Assembly (NCBI GenBank): GCA_900617975.1
Contig: UZAE01012081.1
Coordinates: 1 to 64,000 of the forward strand
Source of the DNA: Rodentolepis nana
Lineage: Eukaryota; Platyhelminthes; Cestoda; Cyclophyllidea; Hymenolepididae
Length of the DNA stretch: 64,000 bases
Direction: 5' to 3'
In this document: piece after piece, positions 3,112 to 62,232 of the stretch
How positions within the stretch are numbered: the stretch's first letter is position 1
How the letters are laid out: each line of letters begins with the position of its first letter
The notes under the pieces: model-generated
What the model saw: the letters and a program-made list of their open reading frames with translations, nothing else
The model's database searches: none
What the model was told of the DNA's origin: nothing
Position numbers and translations under genes: made by a program

Positions 3112-3600
3112 GGGGTGGGCAATAGACTTACCTCCACGTGGTGCACCCTGGGCAATGTATACTCATGCGCCAAAAAGTCTAGTAACTGGCATTTGAGCTA
3201 ACCCTAACACGGCAAAAAGTCTATAAACCGGCAGTTGACCTCTGACTTCAAACTACCATGACCCCACTGTATGTCATATTTGGGCAACAGACCCATACGG
3301 CAAAAAATCTATTAACCGGCAGTTGACTTCAAACTACCATCACCCCACTGTATGTCATATTCGTCTACTTCGACTTCAAACTACCATCACCCCACTGTAT
3401 GTCATATTCGAGCCCTTCCACAGTACTCGTGTAGCCTTTTCTCTGCCTTTGTGTCTGTCTGTCTGTCTGTCTTTTACATCAGCGAATCCCCTGTCGAATT
3501 TTTCTCACTTTAATGTTTCTCCCTTCTGTGAAGCCCGAAGTCAACTAAAGGGCTAATAATAACTAACAACATGCCAGCCATTTGAAATAAATAAATAAAT
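3112..3600 (+). mobile_element. Ribozyme-bearing SINE-like element, copy 2 (expanded)
   Basis: Begins with GGGGTGGGC at 3112 and ends in an (AAAT)n tail. The flanks aaattggaagtt (3100-3111) and aaattagaagtt (3601-3612) form a 12-bp duplication with one mismatch. It is about 170 bp longer than the norm because a unit carrying the motif TTCAAACTACCATCACCCC is repeated in tandem around 3230-3410. The seventh P1 pair and the last P2 pair are lost in its ribozyme region. Confidence 0.9.
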
Positions 3601-3853
3601 AAATTAGAAGTTAGTGTATTGAGCGTAAATAACAACTAGTACTGAAACATTCACTCTGTAATGATTCGAATTCAGTTTAATTAACGATGCATCGAAGTGC
3701 GGAAAAGCTATGAGTTAAGTGTGAATATTCAAAAAAGGTATCATTGGCGAAATATATGTGCAGTACTAGCTTTCTATTTCTGAGATCTTTAATGGAGTTA
3801 AAAAATCGTTTCATTGTGTTTTGCATTACGTAGATATAAATAATCTCAAATGC

Positions 3854-4164
3854 GGGGTGTGCGATAGACTTACCTCCACGTGGTGCACCCTAGTCAACGT
3901 ACGCTCATACGGCAAAAAGTCAATAGATCGTCAGCTGACTTCTAACTTCAAGCTACCATAACCTCATTGTGTGACATATTCTACCACTTCCACAATACTC
4001 ACCTTAACTTCTCCATCTCTTTTGCATCCTTGAATCACTTTTCTGTTCCTCCTCTTCTCAAATTTTTCCCACTTTGCTGTTCCACCTCCCCTCTATGAAG
4101 CCCGAAGTCAACTAAGGAGCTAATGATAACTATCATAAAGCCTGCCATCTAAAATAAATAAATA
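3854..4164 (+). mobile_element. Ribozyme-bearing SINE-like element, copy 3
   Basis: Starts GGGGTGTGCG at 3854 and ends in an (AATA)n tail. A perfect duplication aataatctcaaat flanks it (about 3838-3851 and 4165-4177). P1, P3 and L3 are intact, but the joining segment after P1 reads AGTCAAC instead of GGGCAAC and the P2 3' strand has one mismatch. Confidence 0.92.
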
Positions 4165-4177
4165 AATAATCTCAAAT

Positions 4178-4779: not shown

Positions 4780-6222
4780 TTAATCCTCGTGTAAAGCCTT
4801 CTCTACAATCTCTATAATCTCCGGGTCGTCATAAAATTTTGCGATAGACAATACCGTGGCAGTACCATTGGCTTGAGAAGCATTCACATTTGCGCCTGTA
4901 GAGTATGAAAAATAACGAATTGCATCAATTATTTACCCAAAGCAATAAAGGTTCGGACAAAATTTGCATTTCCTAAGGCAATTGCTCTCATGAGTAGCGT
5001 GTACCCCGTGCTATCGCGTTCGTCTATATCAGCGCCCTTTAAAAGCAGCTGGCGGACGATAAATTCACTCCCTCTGCAAAGAGGAGAGATTATAAGAGGG
5101 CTTCCGGCCATATCTTTAATGTTAGGATCAGCTCCGCTATCGAGTAAGATTCTCGTGATTTCTATATTGTCAGCATTAACGGCAATTCGTAACGCTTGAT
5201 TGAGTTCATCAATTCGATCTTTTGACGGATCACCTTCAGCTAATAATAGAGTCACAATATCAGTATGACCCTAAAAGATTAAAAGGTAAATCTCCTGACT
5301 GATTATCAGAAACGAATAACCTTCGCGGTTGCTAATGTAAGCTCGGATCTTCCTTTCACATTCAGTTGGTACATCATGGGTATATTCTCACTTAGGAAGT
5401 ATTTGACAATTTCAGTGTGACCATGCATAGAAGCGATCATTAATGGGGTATCATAATTACCGTTTCCAACAAAGGCGTGACTTCCTCTTTGCATGAGCAA
5501 CTTTACACTTTCCAGATGCCCTAAGCGAGTGGCTCTGTGAATGGCGTAATTTCCATTCATATCAAAACGATGCCTTGAAGCACCGAGGAGAAGCAGCAGT
5601 TCCATCATTGCTAGATCTCCTCTACCCGTCGCTACTAAAAGTGGTGTTTCACCATCCGCACCTCTGACGGCATTTACACTGGCCTACAAATTATAAAGAA
5701 TAAATTAGCAGTTATATTTACTAAGAAAGTTAAGGGTTTTTTTAAGAATTCAAAATGTCCACTATAACGTTGCGAAGACAGCTCCATGGAGTGAAAGGGA
5801 GAAGATTGTACATAACAATTATTAAAAATTTCGATTCTACCCTCATTTGAATTATTTTTAATTCAATTGTTCAAAGAGAAAGGAAAATAAATTACAAATA
5901 ACACTAAATAATCGTTTTTTTCAAACTAAATGCAGTTTCATTGATCACGATGCCACCTGCATGAACCAAGTAAGGAAAATTAAATCGCCCTTAAATAATC
6001 AACCTTACGTTCAACCTCAATAATAGTAATCAGAAGAGCATATTAAAATGCCAATTTAATCATTACAAATATAAACTTACTCCCATTTGAATAAGCCGTT
6101 CCACTTCATAAATATCACTCTTCTCCAATGCGTGAAACAATCGTGCATTTAGTGGCTCAGTCTCCAACTTCTATGGAATTTCAATGCACTCGTATGAGGA
6201 AACGCATTACCTGTACATCCAT
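4780..6222 (-). CDS. Ankyrin-repeat protein, five exons
   Basis: Seen: five frame-keeping exons at 6222-6211 (ATG GAT GTA CAG), 6170-6081, 5683-5321, 5270-4937 and 4895-4780 (stop TAA), all with GT..AG introns of 40, 397, 50 and 41 nt. They total 915 nt, or 304 residues. The product is almost wholly ankyrin repeats, about eight or nine, with helix signatures such as GHTEIVKYFL, GHTDIVTLLLAEG, DNIEITRILLDSGADPNIKD and IVRQLLLKGADIDERD; no other domain, signal peptide or membrane segment is visible. Known: ankyrin repeats are protein-binding scaffolds. Inferred: a soluble adaptor whose partner cannot be told. The 12-nt first exon is the least certain part; its ATG has an AAAAATGG context and the exon ends at a GTAATG donor. 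The exon 3 donor (GTTATT) is non-consensus, but the join restores a perfect repeat. Confidence 0.8.
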
Positions 6223-6934
6223 TTTTAGGCATAAAACTGACCAAAGTTCATGCCTGATATGTAGTTGGATTAACAACTTTCAGAACGTCAAATGCATCAA
6301 ATTCTTTAATTCACCAATAAATAAGTAGAATTTAAATTCGATTTAGTAAGTTTGAAAATCGAAATCTGCAACAAATGTTCATATCCACATTTATTATAGC
6401 GTGAGTATTTGGCAGACCATTAAGACAAAATATTTTAATGCATTTATACTACAAATCGTATAAAAACTGAAATTTTTTACCATAGCAACTCAATTGATTA
6501 CTGTAAGACAAAGTTATAAGCAAATTGATCAACGAGCTTGAATTTCGGTTACAAAGAGAAGCATTGGGTGTTTCTATAGTCTGTTAGCGTAGAGTTCTTG
6601 AATATAACATGTGGATTCATATAAGATAATCAAGTTTATTTCCTTAAAAAGCATCTGCCAACTGCGTAATACTATAAACTGTTCCACATGTATCGTGTTC
6701 CCATGTTAAAAATGTGAAGTTGATAGTTTCTCTACGACGCAGACTTATATCATCTTTGAGATTTAAAATTGCGCATTTAACAATCGTACAAAGGTACTTA
6801 CGATCAGTGTTTGTCGATAACATTTTTGCCCAACATCAGACTGACAAATTAAACAGTTACATCTCATAACTAGCAATGGAATAAAATTTGCTAGCAATCA
6901 CTGACTCATTAAAGCGTATTTTCTACTAAAATAT
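6223..6934. other. Upstream region of ankyrin gene
   Basis: AT-rich sequence expected to hold the promoter and 5' UTR of the minus-strand ankyrin gene. No specific regulatory motif could be assigned and no other gene was seen. Confidence 0.35.
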
Positions 6935-7289
6935 TTATTTATATCAAATGGTAGGCGACTTGATGGTTATCATTAGCCCTTTAGTTGACTTCAGGTTTCA
7001 TAGAGGGGATGGAAAATGAAATTGTAAAAAGTCGAGAGGGGGGACAGAAGAATGTTTCAAAGATGTTAGAGAAAAACACAAAGGTAGAACAAAGGTGAGG
7101 TGAGTACTGTGGAAGTACACAAAGGTAGAACAAAGGTGAGGTGAGTACTGTGGAAGTGGTCGAATATGACATAGAGTGAGACGATGATATTTTGAATTGA
7201 GAAGTCAACTGCCAGTTAATAGACTTTTTGCCATACGAATATACGTTGCCCAGGGTGCACCACGTAGAGGTAAGTCTATCGCACACCCC
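6935..7289 (-). mobile_element. Ribozyme-bearing SINE-like element, copy 4
   Basis: Antisense copy with a perfect 13-bp duplication tctactaaaatat on both sides (6922-6934 and 7290-7302). A stretch of about 40 bp beginning acaaaggtagaacaaag is tandemly doubled near 7078-7156. Its 5' end at 7289 carries the second-best ribozyme of the window, listed separately. Confidence 0.93.
7219..7289 (-). ncRNA. HDV-like self-cleaving ribozyme, near-intact
   Basis: Read on the minus strand from 7289: P1 GGGGTGT with GCACCCT, P2 ATAGACTT with AAGTCTAT, P3 ACC with GGT, J1/4 GGGCAAC, a short P4, and the J4/2 segment GCAAA with the candidate catalytic C at 7230. Differences from the best copy are one L3 change (TCTACGT for TCCACGT) and P4 changes that keep pairing partly through wobbles. 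The L3 change may lower activity. The fold is by eye. Confidence 0.72.
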
Positions 7290-14457: not shown

Positions 14458-14766
14458 TTTTTCAATTGGTAGGCGTCTTGATAGTTATCATTAGCCCTTC
14501 AGCTGACTTTGAGCTTCACAGGGAAAAGGAAGAACACCAAAGTGACAAAAACTCGAAATGGGGGAAAGAAAAATGATTCAAAGATGTAAAAGAGACAGGC
14601 AAAGGTAGAGAAAAGTTGAGTTGAGTACTGTGGAAGGAGTCGAATATGGCATACAGTCTGTTCATGGTAGTTTGAAGTCAGAAGTCAATTGCCGGTTTAT
14701 AGGCTTTGCCGTATGAGTAAACGTTGCCCAGGGTACACCACGTGGCTATAAGTAAATCGCACACTC
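14458..14766 (-). mobile_element. Ribozyme-bearing SINE-like element, copy 5 (decayed)
   Basis: Antisense copy recognised by the internal block tgatagttatcattagccc and the end containing ccacgtgg. The 5' end reads GAGTGTGCGA, so P1 and P2 are disrupted. Target duplication is unclear; at most atgatgttg/gtcatgttg near the edges. Probably one of the oldest copies. Confidence 0.75.
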
Positions 14767-19128: not shown

Positions 19129-19443
19129 GGGGTGTGCGATGAATTTATCTCCACGTGGTGCACCCTGGACAAAGTATAATCATAAGACAAAAATGTCTAT
19201 AAAACTGCAGTTGACTTCTAGCCTCAAACTACCATGACCCGACTGTATGTTATATTCGACCACTTTCCCAGTACTCACCTTTCCTTATCTCTTCGCGTCT
19301 GTCAATTTTACATCTCTGAATGATTTTTCTGTTCTTCCTCTCGACTTTTGTGACCTTGATGCTCCTCCCCTCCGGGTGGCCCAAAGTCAACTAAAGGTCT
19401 TTTGTTAACTATCATAAAACCTGTCATTTGTCATAAATAAATA
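19129..19443 (+). mobile_element. Ribozyme-bearing SINE-like element, copy 6
   Basis: Perfect 14-bp duplication aatatttagagcgg (19112-19125 and 19444-19457), with three extra bases before the GGGG start. L3 TCCACGT survives, but P2 is degenerate, so the ribozyme should be dead. Confidence 0.92.
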
Positions 19444-19457
19444 AATATTTAGAGCGG

Positions 19458-20257: not shown

Positions 20258-20270
20258 TTTCTACTGATAT

Positions 20271-20620
20271 TTATTTATATAAAATATCATGCGTTTTGAT
20301 ATTTATCATTAGCCCTTTAGTTGACTTCAGGCTTCAGAGAAAGGAAGAGGAACACCAAAGTGGCAAAAAGTCGAGAGCAGGAAGCAACATCAAAGTGAAA
20401 AAGTGTTGAGAGGGGAGTGGGGCAGAAGAGTGCTTCAAAAATGTAAAAGAGATGGACGCAAAGGTCGAGAGTAGGGTCAGGCGATTACTGTAAAGTAGTC
20501 GAATATGACATAAAGGGGGATGATGGTAGTCTGAAGTCGGAAGTCAACTCCCGGTTAATAGATGTATGAGTATACGTTGCCTAAGGTGCACCACGTGGAG
20601 GTGGATCAATCACACACCCC
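20271..20620 (-). mobile_element. Ribozyme-bearing SINE-like element, copy 7
   Basis: Antisense copy. Flanks tttctactgatat (20258-20270) and tttctactggtta (20621-20633) are a diverged target duplication. A block around 20350-20420 with the motif caaagtg is partly doubled. The J4/2 segment and the 3' strand of P2 are deleted from the ribozyme region. Confidence 0.88.
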
Positions 20621-22222: not shown

Positions 22223-22533
22223 GGGGTGTGCGGTAAACTTACCTCCACGTGGTACACCCTGGCCATGTATACTCATAAGGTAAAAAAGTCTATAGACCGG
22301 CAGTTGACCTCCAACTTCAAACTACCATGACCACACTGTATGTCATTTTCATCCACTCCCGCAATGCTCACCTTACTTTATTTCTCTACCTTTGTGTCTG
22401 TCAGTCGCTTTTCATCTGTGATTCATTCTTCTATTTCCTCTCTCGACTTTTTTTCACTTTGATGTTCCTCTCCTCTGTAAGGCCCGAAGTCAGCTAAAGA
22501 GATCATGATAATTATCAAAACTCTTACCATTTG

Positions 22534-22561
<28 letters not shown>
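22223..22561 (+). mobile_element. Ribozyme-bearing SINE-like element, copy 8 (TA tail)
   Basis: Flanked by atattcggtaacga (22209-22222) and atatttggtagcga (22562-22575). Its (AATA)n tail has become a (TA)n microsatellite of about 30 bp. P1 pairs fully, but the candidate catalytic C of J4/2 is T here and P2 has mismatches. Confidence 0.9.
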
Positions 22562-23701: not shown

Positions 23702-24010
23702 GGGGTGTGCGATAGACTTAAATCCACGCGTACACCCTGGGCAATGTATGCTCATACGGAAAAAGTCTATAAACCTGCAGTTGGCTTCTCACGTTAAACT
23801 ACCATCACCCCACTGTATGTCATATTCGACTGCTTCCACAGTACTCACCTCACTCTTTTTCTACCTTTGTGTCCGCCTCTTTTTCATCTTTGAAACACTT
23901 TTCTTTTCCCCCCTCAGGACTTTGTTCACTTTGATGTTTCTTCCCCTCCATGATCCCTGAAGTCAACTAAATGGCTAATGATAACTATCAGAACACCTGC
24001 CCTATTTTAT
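23702..24010 (+). mobile_element. Ribozyme-bearing SINE-like element, copy 9
   Basis: Perfect 14-bp duplication aaatatttatataa (23687-23700 and 24011-24024). Base changes in P3 and loss of the J4/2 cytosine should inactivate the ribozyme. Confidence 0.92.
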
Positions 24011-24024
24011 AAATATTTATATAA

Positions 24025-39856: not shown

Positions 39857-39869
39857 ATATGCTCTACCT

Positions 39870-39940
39870 GGGGTGTGCGATAGACTTACCTCCACGTGGT
39901 GCACCCTGGGCAACGTATACTCATACGGCAAAAAGTCTAT
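39870..39940 (+). ncRNA. HDV-like self-cleaving ribozyme, intact fold
   Basis: All elements of the HDV-type double pseudoknot can be placed. P1 39870-39876 (GGGGTGT) pairs with 39901-39907 (GCACCCT), seven pairs including two G-U. P2 39880-39887 (ATAGACTT) pairs with 39933-39940 (AAGTCTAT), eight Watson-Crick pairs. P3 is ACC 39888-39890 with GGT 39898-39900, closing the seven-base L3 TCCACGT. P1.1 can form between L3 C's and GG at 39908-39909. J1/4 is GGGCAAC. P4 39914-39918 pairs with 39923-39927 around ACTC. J4/2 is GCAAA with the candidate catalytic C at 39929. Known: HDV-like ribozymes cut 5' of the first P1 base and occur at the 5' ends of several LINE families. Here that base is also the first base after the target duplication. 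Not computed or tested. Confidence 0.85.
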
Positions 39941-40178
39941 TAACCCGCAGTTGACTTCAAGCTACCAAGGCCCCCTGTATGACATATTCGACCACTTCCA
40001 CAGTGCTACATCACATTTTTTCTGAATTTTCAACCTTCGTCTTTGAAACACTCTTCAGTTCCCCTCCTCTCGACTTTTTTCACTTTGATGTACTTTCCCC
40101 TCTGTGAAACCTGAAGTCAACTAAAGGGCTAATGATAACCATCAAAACGCCTGCCATTTGATATAAAAAAATAAATAA
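39870..40178 (+). mobile_element. Ribozyme-bearing SINE-like element, copy 10 (best preserved)
   Basis: Perfect 13-bp duplication atatgctctacct (39857-39869 and 40179-40191), with the GGGG start immediately after it and an (AAAT)n tail before it. Ribozyme region fully intact (listed separately). After the ribozyme come a GACTTCAAGCTACC block, a pyrimidine-rich central part and the conserved 3' block ggctaatgataaccatc. It has no open reading frame of note. Confidence 0.95.
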
Positions 40179-40191
40179 ATATGCTCTACCT

Positions 40192-42962: not shown

Positions 42963-43303
42963 GGAGTGTGCGATAGACTTACCTCCATGTGGTTCACCCT
43001 GGGCAACGTATACTCACACGACAAAAAAGTCTATTAACTGGCGGTTGACATCTGACCTCAAACTGCCATGACCCCACTCTATGTCATATTCGACCCCTTT
43101 CACAGTACTCACCTCACCTTTTCTCTAACTTTGTGTCTGTCTGTCTTTTACATCTCTGAATCGCTCTTCTTTTCCCCTGTCGAATTTTACTCACTTTAAT
43201 GTTCCTCCCTTCTGTGAAGCCCGAAGTCAACTGATAACTATCAAAATGCCTGCCATTTGAAATAAATAAATTCATCAAAATGCCTGCCATTTGAAATAAA
43301 TAA
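42963..43303 (+). mobile_element. Ribozyme-bearing SINE-like element, copy 11
   Basis: Perfect 14-bp duplication atattacttggaat (42949-42962 and 43304-43317). The last 30 bp (tcaaaatgcctgccatttga plus AATA tail) occur twice in tandem (about 43239 and 43273). P1 has a mismatch and L3 reads TCCATGT. Confidence 0.93.
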
Positions 43304-44277: not shown

Positions 44278-44583
44278 AAATTTATTTATATCAAATGGCA
44301 GGCTTTATGATGGTTATCATTAGCCCTTAAGTTGACTTTAGGCTTCATAGAGGGGATGGAACATCAAAGTGAAAAAAGTCGAAAGGGGGGACAGAGGTAA
44401 AAGAGACACAGACACGAAGGCAGAGGAAAAGTAAGGTGAGTACTATGGAAGTGGTGGAATATGACATGCAGTGGGGTCATGGTAGTTTGAAGTCAGAAGC
44501 CAACTTCAGGTTTATAGACTTTTTCCGTAGAAGTATACATTGCCCAGGGCGCACCACGTGGAGATAAGTCTATTGCACAGCCC
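44278..44583 (-). mobile_element. Ribozyme-bearing SINE-like element, copy 12
   Basis: Antisense copy with recognisable ends (tttatttatatcaaatggcag left; ccacgtggag with a degenerate GGGC start right). Target duplication is not clear. The J4/2 cytosine is absent, so the ribozyme is probably dead. Confidence 0.85.
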
Positions 44584-47969: not shown

Positions 47970-47982
47970 TCAATCGAAATAT

Positions 47983-48398
47983 TCATTTATTTATATCGAA
48001 TGGCAGGCGTTTTGATAGTTATCATTAGCCCTTTAGTGGACTTCGGTCTTCATAGAGAGGAGGAGAAACATCAAGGTGACAAAAAGAGGACTTCAGGCTT
48101 AGGCGTTTTGATAGTTATCATTAGCCCTTTAGTGGACTTCAGGCTCCACAGATGGGAAGGAACACCAGAGTGAAAAAAAAGTCGAGAAGGGGGGGTGGAA
48201 TAGAAGACTGTTTCAAAGATGCAAAAGAGAGACACAAAGGTATAAAAAAGGTGAGGCGAGTAATGTGGAAGTAGTCAAATATGACATACAGCGGGATCAT
48301 GGTAGTTTGAAGTCAACTGCCGGTTAATAGACTTTTTTGCTGTATGAGTATACGTGGTCCAGGGTACACCAAGAGGAGGTAAGTCTATCGCACACCCC
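47983..48398 (-). mobile_element. Ribozyme-bearing SINE-like element, copy 13 (duplicated 3' part)
   Basis: Antisense copy with duplication tcaatcgaaata on both sides (47970-47981 and 48399-48410). The 3' block gcgttttgatagttatcatt occurs twice (about 48007 and 48103). P1 and P2 remain pairable, but L3 reads TCCTCTT and J1/4 is changed. Confidence 0.92.
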
Positions 48399-56157: not shown

Positions 56158-56575
56158 GGGGTGTGCGATAGACTTACCTCATTGTGGTGCATCCTGGGCA
56201 ACGTATACTCATACGGCAAAAAGTCTATTAACCGGCAGTTGACTTCTAACTTCCAACTACCATCCCCCCATTGTATGGCAGTTGACTTCTAACTTCCAAC
56301 TACCATCCCCCTACTATATGTGATATTCGAGCCCTTCCACAGTACTCATCTTACTTTTTCTCAGCATCTGTGTCTGTCTGGCTAATCACATATGTTAATC
56401 ATTATTCTGTACCTCCTCTCGACTTTTTGTCACATTGATGTTTCTTCTTCTCACTGTAAAGCCCGAAGTCAGCTAAATGGCTAATGATAACTATCAAAAC
56501 ACCGAAGTCAGCTAAATGGCTAATGATAACTATCAAAATGCCTCCCATTTGAACTAAATAAGTAAATAAATAAAT
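56158..56575 (+). mobile_element. Ribozyme-bearing SINE-like element, copy 14 (duplicated blocks)
   Basis: Starts GGGGTGTGCG at 56158 and ends in an AATA-type tail. Two internal blocks are doubled: ggcagttgacttctaactt (56235 and 56277) and a roughly 43-bp block with accgaagtcagctaaatggc (near 56463 and 56504). P1, P2, P4 and J4/2 are intact, but L3 is TCATTGT. No clear target duplication. It lies about 120 bp upstream of the Bax inhibitor start codon. Confidence 0.88.
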
Positions 56576-60419: not shown

Positions 60420-60740
60420 GGGGATGCGTGATAGACTTACCTCCACGTGGTAAGACCTGGGCAGCGTATACTCGTACGGTAAAAGGGTCTATAAACCGGC
60501 AGTTGACTTCTCATTTCAAACTACCGTGACGCGACTGAATGTCATATTCGGCCACATCCACAGTACTCACTTTGCCTTTTCCCTCTACCACTACATCTCT
60601 CTCTTACCATTGTGAATCGCTCTTCTGTTCCATCTCTCAAATTTTTTGTGACCTTGTCTGTTCCTCCCTTATGTGAAGCCCGAAGCCACCCTAAGGGGTA
60701 ATGATAATTACCATAAAGCCTACCATTTGATATCAATAAA
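60420..60740 (+). mobile_element. Ribozyme-bearing SINE-like element, copy 15
   Basis: Starts GGGGATGCG. The flanks share agtcata (left about 60411-60419, right about 60743-60751). P1 is disrupted and the J4/2 C is T, so the ribozyme should be inactive. L3 TCCACGT is kept. Confidence 0.85.
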
Positions 60741-60751
60741 TTAGTAGTCAT

Positions 60752-61640: not shown

Positions 61641-61921
61641 AGAAAGTGTGACCTTGTTTACCGGTAAGAATGTCACCCGACTTGCTGTTGACTAGTTTTG
61701 AGCACCGTTTGGTTAATCATGTTCATATCAAGTCATTCGTAATTGGTTAGATCATTTTTGTGCTTTCCTTCGTCATCTCCTATGCTTAATTGGTGGTGTT
61801 ATGAGAATAAAGGAAGCCTTCAGGATATCGCCATTCTTCACCAGTTGTTGCTGCATGACAAGCGTATATAATTATAAAGACACATTTTATGAAAATGAGA
61901 AATGTGCTTTCCCTCAAATAT

Positions 61922-62232
61922 TTATTTATATCAAATGGCAGGCGTTTTGATATTTAACATTAGCCCTTTGGTTGACTTCAAGAAGGGACATCAAAGTGAA
62001 AAAAACGTCGGGGGGGGGGGGGGGGGACAGAAGAGTATCTCAAAGATATAAAAGGACAGACACAAAGGTAGAAAAAGGTGAGGTGAGTACTGTGAAAGTG
62101 GTAGAATATGACAAACAGTGGGGTCATGGTAGTTTGAAGTGAGAAGTCAACTGCAGGTTTACAGACATTTTTGCTGTATGAGTAATCGTTGCCCAGGGTG
62201 CATCACGTGGAGGTAGATCTATCGCACACCCT
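61922..62232 (-). mobile_element. Ribozyme-bearing SINE-like element, copy 16
   Basis: Antisense copy flanked by ttccctcaaata (61909-61920) and ttcctcaaata (62234-62244). It carries a run of 17 G at 62010-62026 (C on the sense strand) in the pyrimidine-rich middle. P1 can pair with A-U in place of G-U at its first position; P2 and P3 have mismatches. Confidence 0.9.

Follow-up and report, generated by a model that had tools for sequence, protein, structure and literature searches.

The stretch of DNA analysed here, called the window throughout, comprises 64,000 nucleotides (nt) of contig UZAE01012081.1 of the tapeworm Rodentolepis nana (assembly GCA_900617975.1). Positions 39870-40178 of its + strand hold a retroposed element of 309 bp, belonging to a family of about 310 bp in length, with a direct repeat of 13 bp on both sides. 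This repeat, the target-site duplication (TSD) ATATGCTCTACCT, occupies 39857-39869 at the 5' end and 40179-40191 at the 3' end. The element begins with a sequence (39870-39940) resembling the self-cleaving ribozyme of hepatitis delta virus (HDV) by Rfam comparison, by pairing and by a structural descriptor, with the predicted cut between 39869 and 39870. The ribozyme is followed by the 5' arm AGTTGACTTCA of a possible long-range helix (39949-39959), a middle of 144 nt without detected similarity to a long interspersed nuclear element (LINE) (39960-40103), and a LINE-like 3' end with an A-rich tail (40104-40178), within which lies the 3' arm TGAAGTCAACT of the helix (40112-40122); all these parts are on the + strand. 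The copy under study is a member of a young subfamily. The presence of an element with an HDV-like head, which had been noticed in an earlier inspection of the letters alone (the sequence-only reading), was confirmed.

The 39870 copy is complete with respect to the nested double pseudoknot of HDV-like ribozymes, comprising P1, P2, P3, P1.1, P4 and the cytosine of J4/2. P1 consists of 7 bp (39870-39876 with 39901-39907) and places a G.U pair at the predicted cleavage site, P2 of 8 bp (39880-39887 with 39933-39940), and P3 of 3 bp (39888-39890 with 39898-39900) closed by the loop L3, TCCACGT (39891-39897). P1.1 is formed by CC and GG (39892-39893 with 39908-39909) and P4 by 5 bp (39914-39918 with 39923-39927), while the candidate catalytic cytosine in J4/2 is placed at 39929 on the + strand by pairing and motif position. 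The Rfam model RF02682 matched this copy with 40.2 bits (E 7.2e-6 over all Rfam families) and RF00094 with 31.7 bits (E 0.014), whereas drz-agam-1 gave merely 14.6 bits (E 5.7). A strict HDV descriptor, written after the site had been seen, found 39870 alone when applied to both strands of the window, and found nothing in 20 dinucleotide shuffles. We also searched the genome (107.1 Mb in 4,701 contigs), where a first look gave 25,212 candidates, 61 of which were scored with RF02682. The cut-off of this family was passed by 37 of the 61, the best reaching 54.5 bits, and all of the top 8 matches belonged to the short element family. None of 14 control genomes gave an RF02682 signal, those of the 14 that are named being prokaryotes. 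Thirty short-copy loci were fetched and 20 of them searched; one copy, at locus L012, scored 45.7 bits, over the cut-off of 44. Identity as a ribozyme is proposed from the motif match together with an element edge at the predicted cut, and cleavage itself is a prediction.

A cut immediately 5' of the opening G of P1 predicts that fresh insertions start at that base. Column information rose from 0.19 bits at -1 to 1.54 bits at +1 in 51 short copies, and from 0.19 to 1.17 bits in 22 5' ends of a LINE described below; no conserved sequence was found upstream of nt 1 in these 51 short and 22 LINE rows. All but one of the rows had been pre-selected for an alignment start at nt 1-3. The 16 window copies, counted as BLAST matches to the family consensus (E<=1e-4) with a 5' part, were not so selected; their consensus alignments began at nt 1 in 14 cases, at nt 2 in one and at nt 4 in one, and thus none is 5'-truncated. 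TSDs of at least 8 bp, ranging from 8 to 18 bp, flanked 33 of 48 distinct short copies, the other 15 having none of that length; copies lacking a 3' end or lying at the margin of a locus were left out of this count. The exact match ended at nt 1 in 18 of the 33, 1-6 nt upstream in 13 and 1-2 nt downstream in 2. The sequence-only reading had claimed at least 16 copies with a common 5' end, a fit of the first 71 nt to the HDV double pseudoknot and a cut coinciding with the TSD boundary. The copy count was borne out, the fold was reproduced base by base down to the C at 39929, and the TSD at 39857-39869 does end where the cut before 39870 is predicted. Its expectation that 5' ends elsewhere would coincide with the first base of P1 also agrees with the shared start of the window copies and the unconserved upstream sequence.

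The genome was then screened for reverse transcriptases, and 30 loci were fetched from the 150 matches listed. Among the fetched loci was a LINE whose last ~75 nt resemble the tail of the short element and whose frames carry Exo_endo_phos_2, RVT_1 and RNase_H domains. A combination of endonuclease, reverse transcriptase and RNase H fits several LINE clades. Many of the LINE protein's named relatives come from Rodentolepis nana or Hymenolepis microstoma, and a PDB search with it gave only LINE-1 and R2 proteins. COX1 of this genome translates cleanly under the flatworm mitochondrial code and has matches of up to 91%; the best named one is Pseudanoplocephala crawfordi (89%), followed by taeniids and other tapeworms, with no Rodentolepis or Hymenolepis entry among the 120 listed of 8,000. 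A Gyrodactylus host, considered at first because of the mitochondrial code, was rejected because COX1 is of cestode type. The same ribozyme was found directly upstream of the LINE open frame. It was present in 22 of 22 LINE 5' ends, with the alignment starting at nt 1 in 17 and at nt 2-4 in 5. These ends comprised 20 picked for reaching the 5' region, plus L063 and L066, and hence carry no information on truncation. The sequence TTTGACTTCGATTTATTATG continued exactly in 12 of the 22, and the ATG opening the LINE frame lay at nt 100-105 in 20 of them. A 28-nt LINE-specific stretch near the start codon occurred at 449 places in the genome. Since every LINE 5' end examined bore the ribozyme, about nt 1-91 of the short element, its head, correspond to the LINE 5' untranslated region (UTR). 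The tail (about nt 238-312) corresponds to the LINE 3' end, with 12 of 13 LINE tail rows (11 distinct copies) aligning through the A-rich tail and the thirteenth being cut by the end of its locus. Head and tail of the short element are 80-94% alike the LINE. One LINE tail (L032:3291-3363) reads GAAGTCAACTAAG, in the manner of the short family, instead of GAAGTCAAAG(A/T)TTAAG, and perhaps represents the LINE subfamily nearest to the passenger. Three further fetched loci (L033, L034 and L051) hold long open frames with reverse transcriptase, of 473-1109 amino acids, whose translations look like polyproteins of long terminal repeat retrotransposons.

The 144-nt middle, compared with five LINE copies, gave no match better than E 0.76. 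As far as this comparison reaches, the short element appears to be composed of a LINE head, a LINE tail and a middle of ~144 nt not detectably derived from the LINE. Tails of the short copies are AATA-like. A long-range helix of 11 bp can be drawn in the short family between consensus nt 81-91 and nt 246-256, that is, between head and 3' end; a helix of this length was reached by 7 of 2000 shuffles between nt 1-110 and 201-312. At the matching places the LINE offers 9 Watson-Crick pairs (10-13 with G.U), a value reached in four subfamily combinations by 12, 97, 146 and 169 out of 1000 shuffles, respectively, and not significant in three of the four. One pair of the helix changes from U-A to G-C between the LINE and the short family, by reading of the two, and 61 short copies showed little further compensation as judged by eye. 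The helix is a possible one, secondary to the argument and of interest as a lead.

The family is abundant in the window and in the genome. Besides the element at 39870, copies lie on the + strand at 3112-3602 (with an internal rearrangement), 3854-4169, 19129-19447, 22223-22550, 23702-24024, 42963-43271, 56158-56569 (with a short tandem duplication) and 60421-60741. Those on the - strand are at 26-352, 6932-7289 (with a short tandem duplication), 14462-14764 (aligned from nt 4), 20268-20620, 44280-44583, 47980-48398 (in two pieces) and 61919-62231 (aligned from nt 2). Sixteen copies of about 310 bp make up about 8% of the window. A 32-nt core from the second half of the ribozyme, allowing up to 3 mismatches, occurred at 3,148 places in the genome, while the reversed pattern used as control occurred at none. 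Only 3 of these places fall in the window, as against its 16 copies, which suggests some 10,000-20,000 copies genome-wide by a rough scaling from one window. The 39870 copy belongs to a young subfamily that is rarer, a 39-nt piece of this subfamily's middle being present at 128 genome places. Older subfamilies (L087-L093) show a duplicated TGACTTC downstream of the ribozyme (GTTGACTTCTGACTTC, for example); several of these copies outscore the 39870 copy in the HDV model. Tandem duplications of ~39-41 nt recur at varying spots inside copies (L014:2496-3148, L014:2265-2469, L094, and window positions 7076-7157 and 56463-56538), and L014 has 16 repeats of a 39-nt ribozyme segment (about nt 22-60). 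Such duplications may stem from slippage, from template switching or from an artefact of assembly.

Taken together, we favour the view, at a probability of about 0.8, that this is a non-autonomous tapeworm retrotransposon family whose RNA is freed by its own HDV-like ribozyme and copied in trans by a LINE resident in this genome. The observations behind it are the head and tail in common with the LINE, the 5' edge, the TSDs, the copy number and the match to the HDV models; cleavage and the source of the transcript are inferred, and mobilisation by this particular LINE is suggested by the shared ends. The element RNA would be made inside a longer transcript, and its own ribozyme would cut just before nt 1, restoring the exact 5' end whatever the promoter. 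The LINE protein, with its endonuclease, reverse transcriptase and RNase H, would recognise the common 3' end, and target-primed reverse transcription running up to the ribozyme-made end would leave insertions that are full-length and flanked by TSDs of 8-18 bp. The ribozyme would travel with every insertion, which could release itself from whatever transcript it comes to lie in; since the ribozyme would set the 5' end irrespective of promoter, a copy anywhere in a transcription unit could do so. Ends in common with the LINE, TSDs and an abrupt 5' boundary are what a passenger multiplied by target-primed reverse transcription would be expected to show. We extend this view only tentatively, at somewhat less than even odds, to a chimera of LINE head, middle of other origin and LINE tail, in which the ribozyme replaces the RNA polymerase III (Pol III) promoter as head of an element resembling a short interspersed nuclear element (SINE) and the helix between head and 3' UTR marks both RNA ends for the LINE protein.

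Several observations weigh against an active ribozyme cutting at nt 1. The 39870 copy lies under the gathering scores of both RF02682 (44) and RF00094 (50), and a whole-window Rfam search at gathering scores gave no match. The covariance check proposed in the sequence-only reading was thus satisfied by family copies elsewhere in the genome, L012 among them, and failed for the very copy on which that reading was based. LINE 5' loci likewise stayed under the Rfam cut-off in 20 of 20 cases (RF02682 E<=0.1 in 15, best 40.9 bits; RF00094 best 39.7 bits). The register of P1 also varied with the model. RF00094 pairs nt 1-7 in the 39870 copy, the register of the sequence-only reading, while RF02682 aligns this copy from 39872 (nt 3), pairing nt 3-9 with nt 32-38, and its alignment starts at nt 3 in 4 of the 8 top genome matches and at nt 1 in the other 4. 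The two best-scoring genome copies, L087 and L088, pair better from nt 3 (7 as against 6 of 7 pairs), so that the top-scoring copies are not the strongest argument for cleavage at nt 1. When pairs were counted in 73 aligned copies, starting P1 at nt 1 beat starting it at nt 3 in 64 copies, tied with it in 8 and fell short of it in 1; the nt 1-7 register is favoured for the family overall because the element edges fall at nt 1.

Covariation in the same 73 copies, all from one genome, did not exceed chance, 2 pairs having changed on both sides as against 2.3 in shuffles; with one species and a mean column identity of 89%, this sample has little power. Although 93.1% of cells pair, against 33-49% with the partners slid, the structure was read from the same sequences and the contrast is weak evidence. 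By our criteria the ribozyme was intact in all its parts in 4 of the 15 window copies, in 26 of the 36 short copies from elsewhere and in 12 of the 22 LINE copies, the J4/2 cytosine being present in 9 of 15, 35 of 36 and 18 of 22, respectively. Partial intactness is expected of decaying copies, but equally of a fold not under selection. The minimum-energy fold of the whole RNA was also unremarkable (z -0.44) and extended P1 into P3; the program forms no pseudoknots, and global folding energy is uninformative here.

A chance likeness to a ribozyme, in a head kept conserved by something else, would agree with the sub-threshold scores of the 39870 copy and of all 20 LINE 5' loci and with the lack of covariation. 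It accounts poorly for the E value of 7.2e-6 at the site, for 37 genome copies over the cut-off, for the absence of descriptor matches in 20 shuffles and for an element edge at the very cut predicted by the perfect P1 register, and we regard it as highly improbable. A promoter in place of a ribozyme is a less remote proposition, though still improbable. The first 71-91 nt would then be an internal RNA polymerase II (Pol II) promoter of the Pr77 type, starting transcription at nt 1, with the HDV-like fold inherited and idle. The CGTG at +26 to +29 (39895-39898, + strand) lies almost at the position of the Pr77 downstream promoter element, the CGTG at +25 to +28, described in PMC4748587 as essential and as lying in ribozyme DNA. 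Pr77 is both promoter and ribozyme (PMC8190864), so that a promoter role is plausible, and the helices are without covariation support. A promoter has no need, however, for P1, P2, P3, P1.1, P4 and the J4/2 cytosine jointly, yet the strict descriptor and the Rfam HDV families match. Moreover, the CGTG belongs to the ribozyme core and is not independent evidence of a promoter, and both roles may coexist; an internal Pol II promoter in the head is possible by analogy with Pr77.

Other alternatives concern the origin of the element. A classical SINE driven by a Pol III promoter from a tRNA, 5S or 7SL gene would share the length, LINE-type tail, TSDs and abundance of the family. On the + strand, A-box matches numbered 7 (10.6 expected) and B-box matches 1 (1.2 expected), neither being above chance. 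Runs of T lie inside the element, the middle holding 6-T runs and the consensus a run of 6 T at 149-154 and of 7 T at 208-214; the Rfam scan at the site of the 39870 element was without a tRNA, 5S or signal recognition particle RNA match, and a search of the window for tRNA genes found none. A classical Pol III SINE was rejected on these results, and we give it next to no credence. It is harder to set aside a plain short internally deleted element (SIDE), in which the whole element, middle included, came from an internal deletion of a LINE, as in NARTc or the R2 SIDEs, the corresponding LINE copies having drifted or escaped sampling. The LINE-derived head and tail are the pattern of a SIDE, and the L032 tail is partly like that of the short family. 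Nevertheless, the middle found no counterpart in the five LINE copies compared, and with head and tail still so alike to the LINE a LINE-derived middle should be recognisable; we consider this origin less likely than not. It differs from the favoured reading, a ribozyme-released passenger of the LINE, solely in the origin of the middle. The short family shares with SIDEs a 5' end, ribozyme included, from the parent LINE, and is a candidate rather than a proven SIDE.

Two other features were seen in passing. The window carries an open frame with ankyrin repeats at 5306-5683 on the - strand (Pfam Ank, E 7.5e-18), and at another locus (L006:2830-2902) a tRNA gene recognised by Rfam with 65.5 bits lies close to a family copy.

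HDV-like ribozymes occur on LINEs, and we know of short passengers retaining one only in trypanosomatids and in the ribosomal DNA (rDNA) of Drosophila. The trypanosomatid NARTc, RIME and SIDER are short elements with a 5' HDV-like ribozyme (PMC4035085), which in NARTc and RIME is combined with the 3' end of a LINE. They belong with the L1Tc-ingi clade, with its Pr77 hallmark and L1TcRz, and the tapeworm family resembles them in the CGTG near +25 in ribozyme DNA. It differs in the phylum of the host, in a middle not recognisably LINE-derived, and in that its promoter and cleavage are predicted. R2 SIDEs and R2/R1 hybrid SIDEs of Drosophila also join a 5' HDV-like ribozyme to a LINE 3' end and are copied by target-primed reverse transcription in trans (PMC3414825). 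Those elements are confined to fixed positions in the rDNA, where they are described as rare, whereas the tapeworm family is dispersed and abundant and has its own middle. Metazoan hammerhead retrozymes are likewise non-autonomous, ribozyme-bearing animal retroelements that have been likened to SINEs (PMC7761336); they carry hammerhead ribozymes and form RNA circles, in contrast to the single 5' HDV-type ribozyme and LINE tail found here. Classical SINEs with LINE-type tails share length, LINE-shared tail, TSDs and copy number with the family, but the tapeworm head is a LINE 5' ribozyme and not a tRNA, 5S or 7SL promoter. Genes like drz-agam-1 are reported in a mite genome paper (PMC6275457). 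No flatworm case of a short ribozyme-headed family was found in the open-licence literature, a weak test confined to top matches.

Overall, the sequence-only reading was partly supported. Its picture of a SINE-like family holds in that the copies are numerous, short, non-coding and retroposed, but they are no stand-alone SINE, head and tail being those of the LINE. Its suggestion that such a family is unusual and perhaps undescribed agrees with the literature for flatworms and has to yield to NARTc, RIME, SIDER and the R2 SIDE as precedents of short families. The type is already known; this family is set apart by its host phylum, its abundance and a middle that is not LINE-derived as far as it could be compared.

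For tapeworm genomics, a repeat taking about 8% of the window now has a name. With its thousands of copies in an animal genome, the family would show that an element headed by a ribozyme can succeed on the scale of SINEs without a Pol III promoter. The family supplies thousands of natural ribozyme variants with known genomic fate, and makes it testable which RNA ends a LINE protein needs for copying in trans. If the chimeric origin and the long-range helix are real, this passenger would display the minimum needed for mobilisation in trans.
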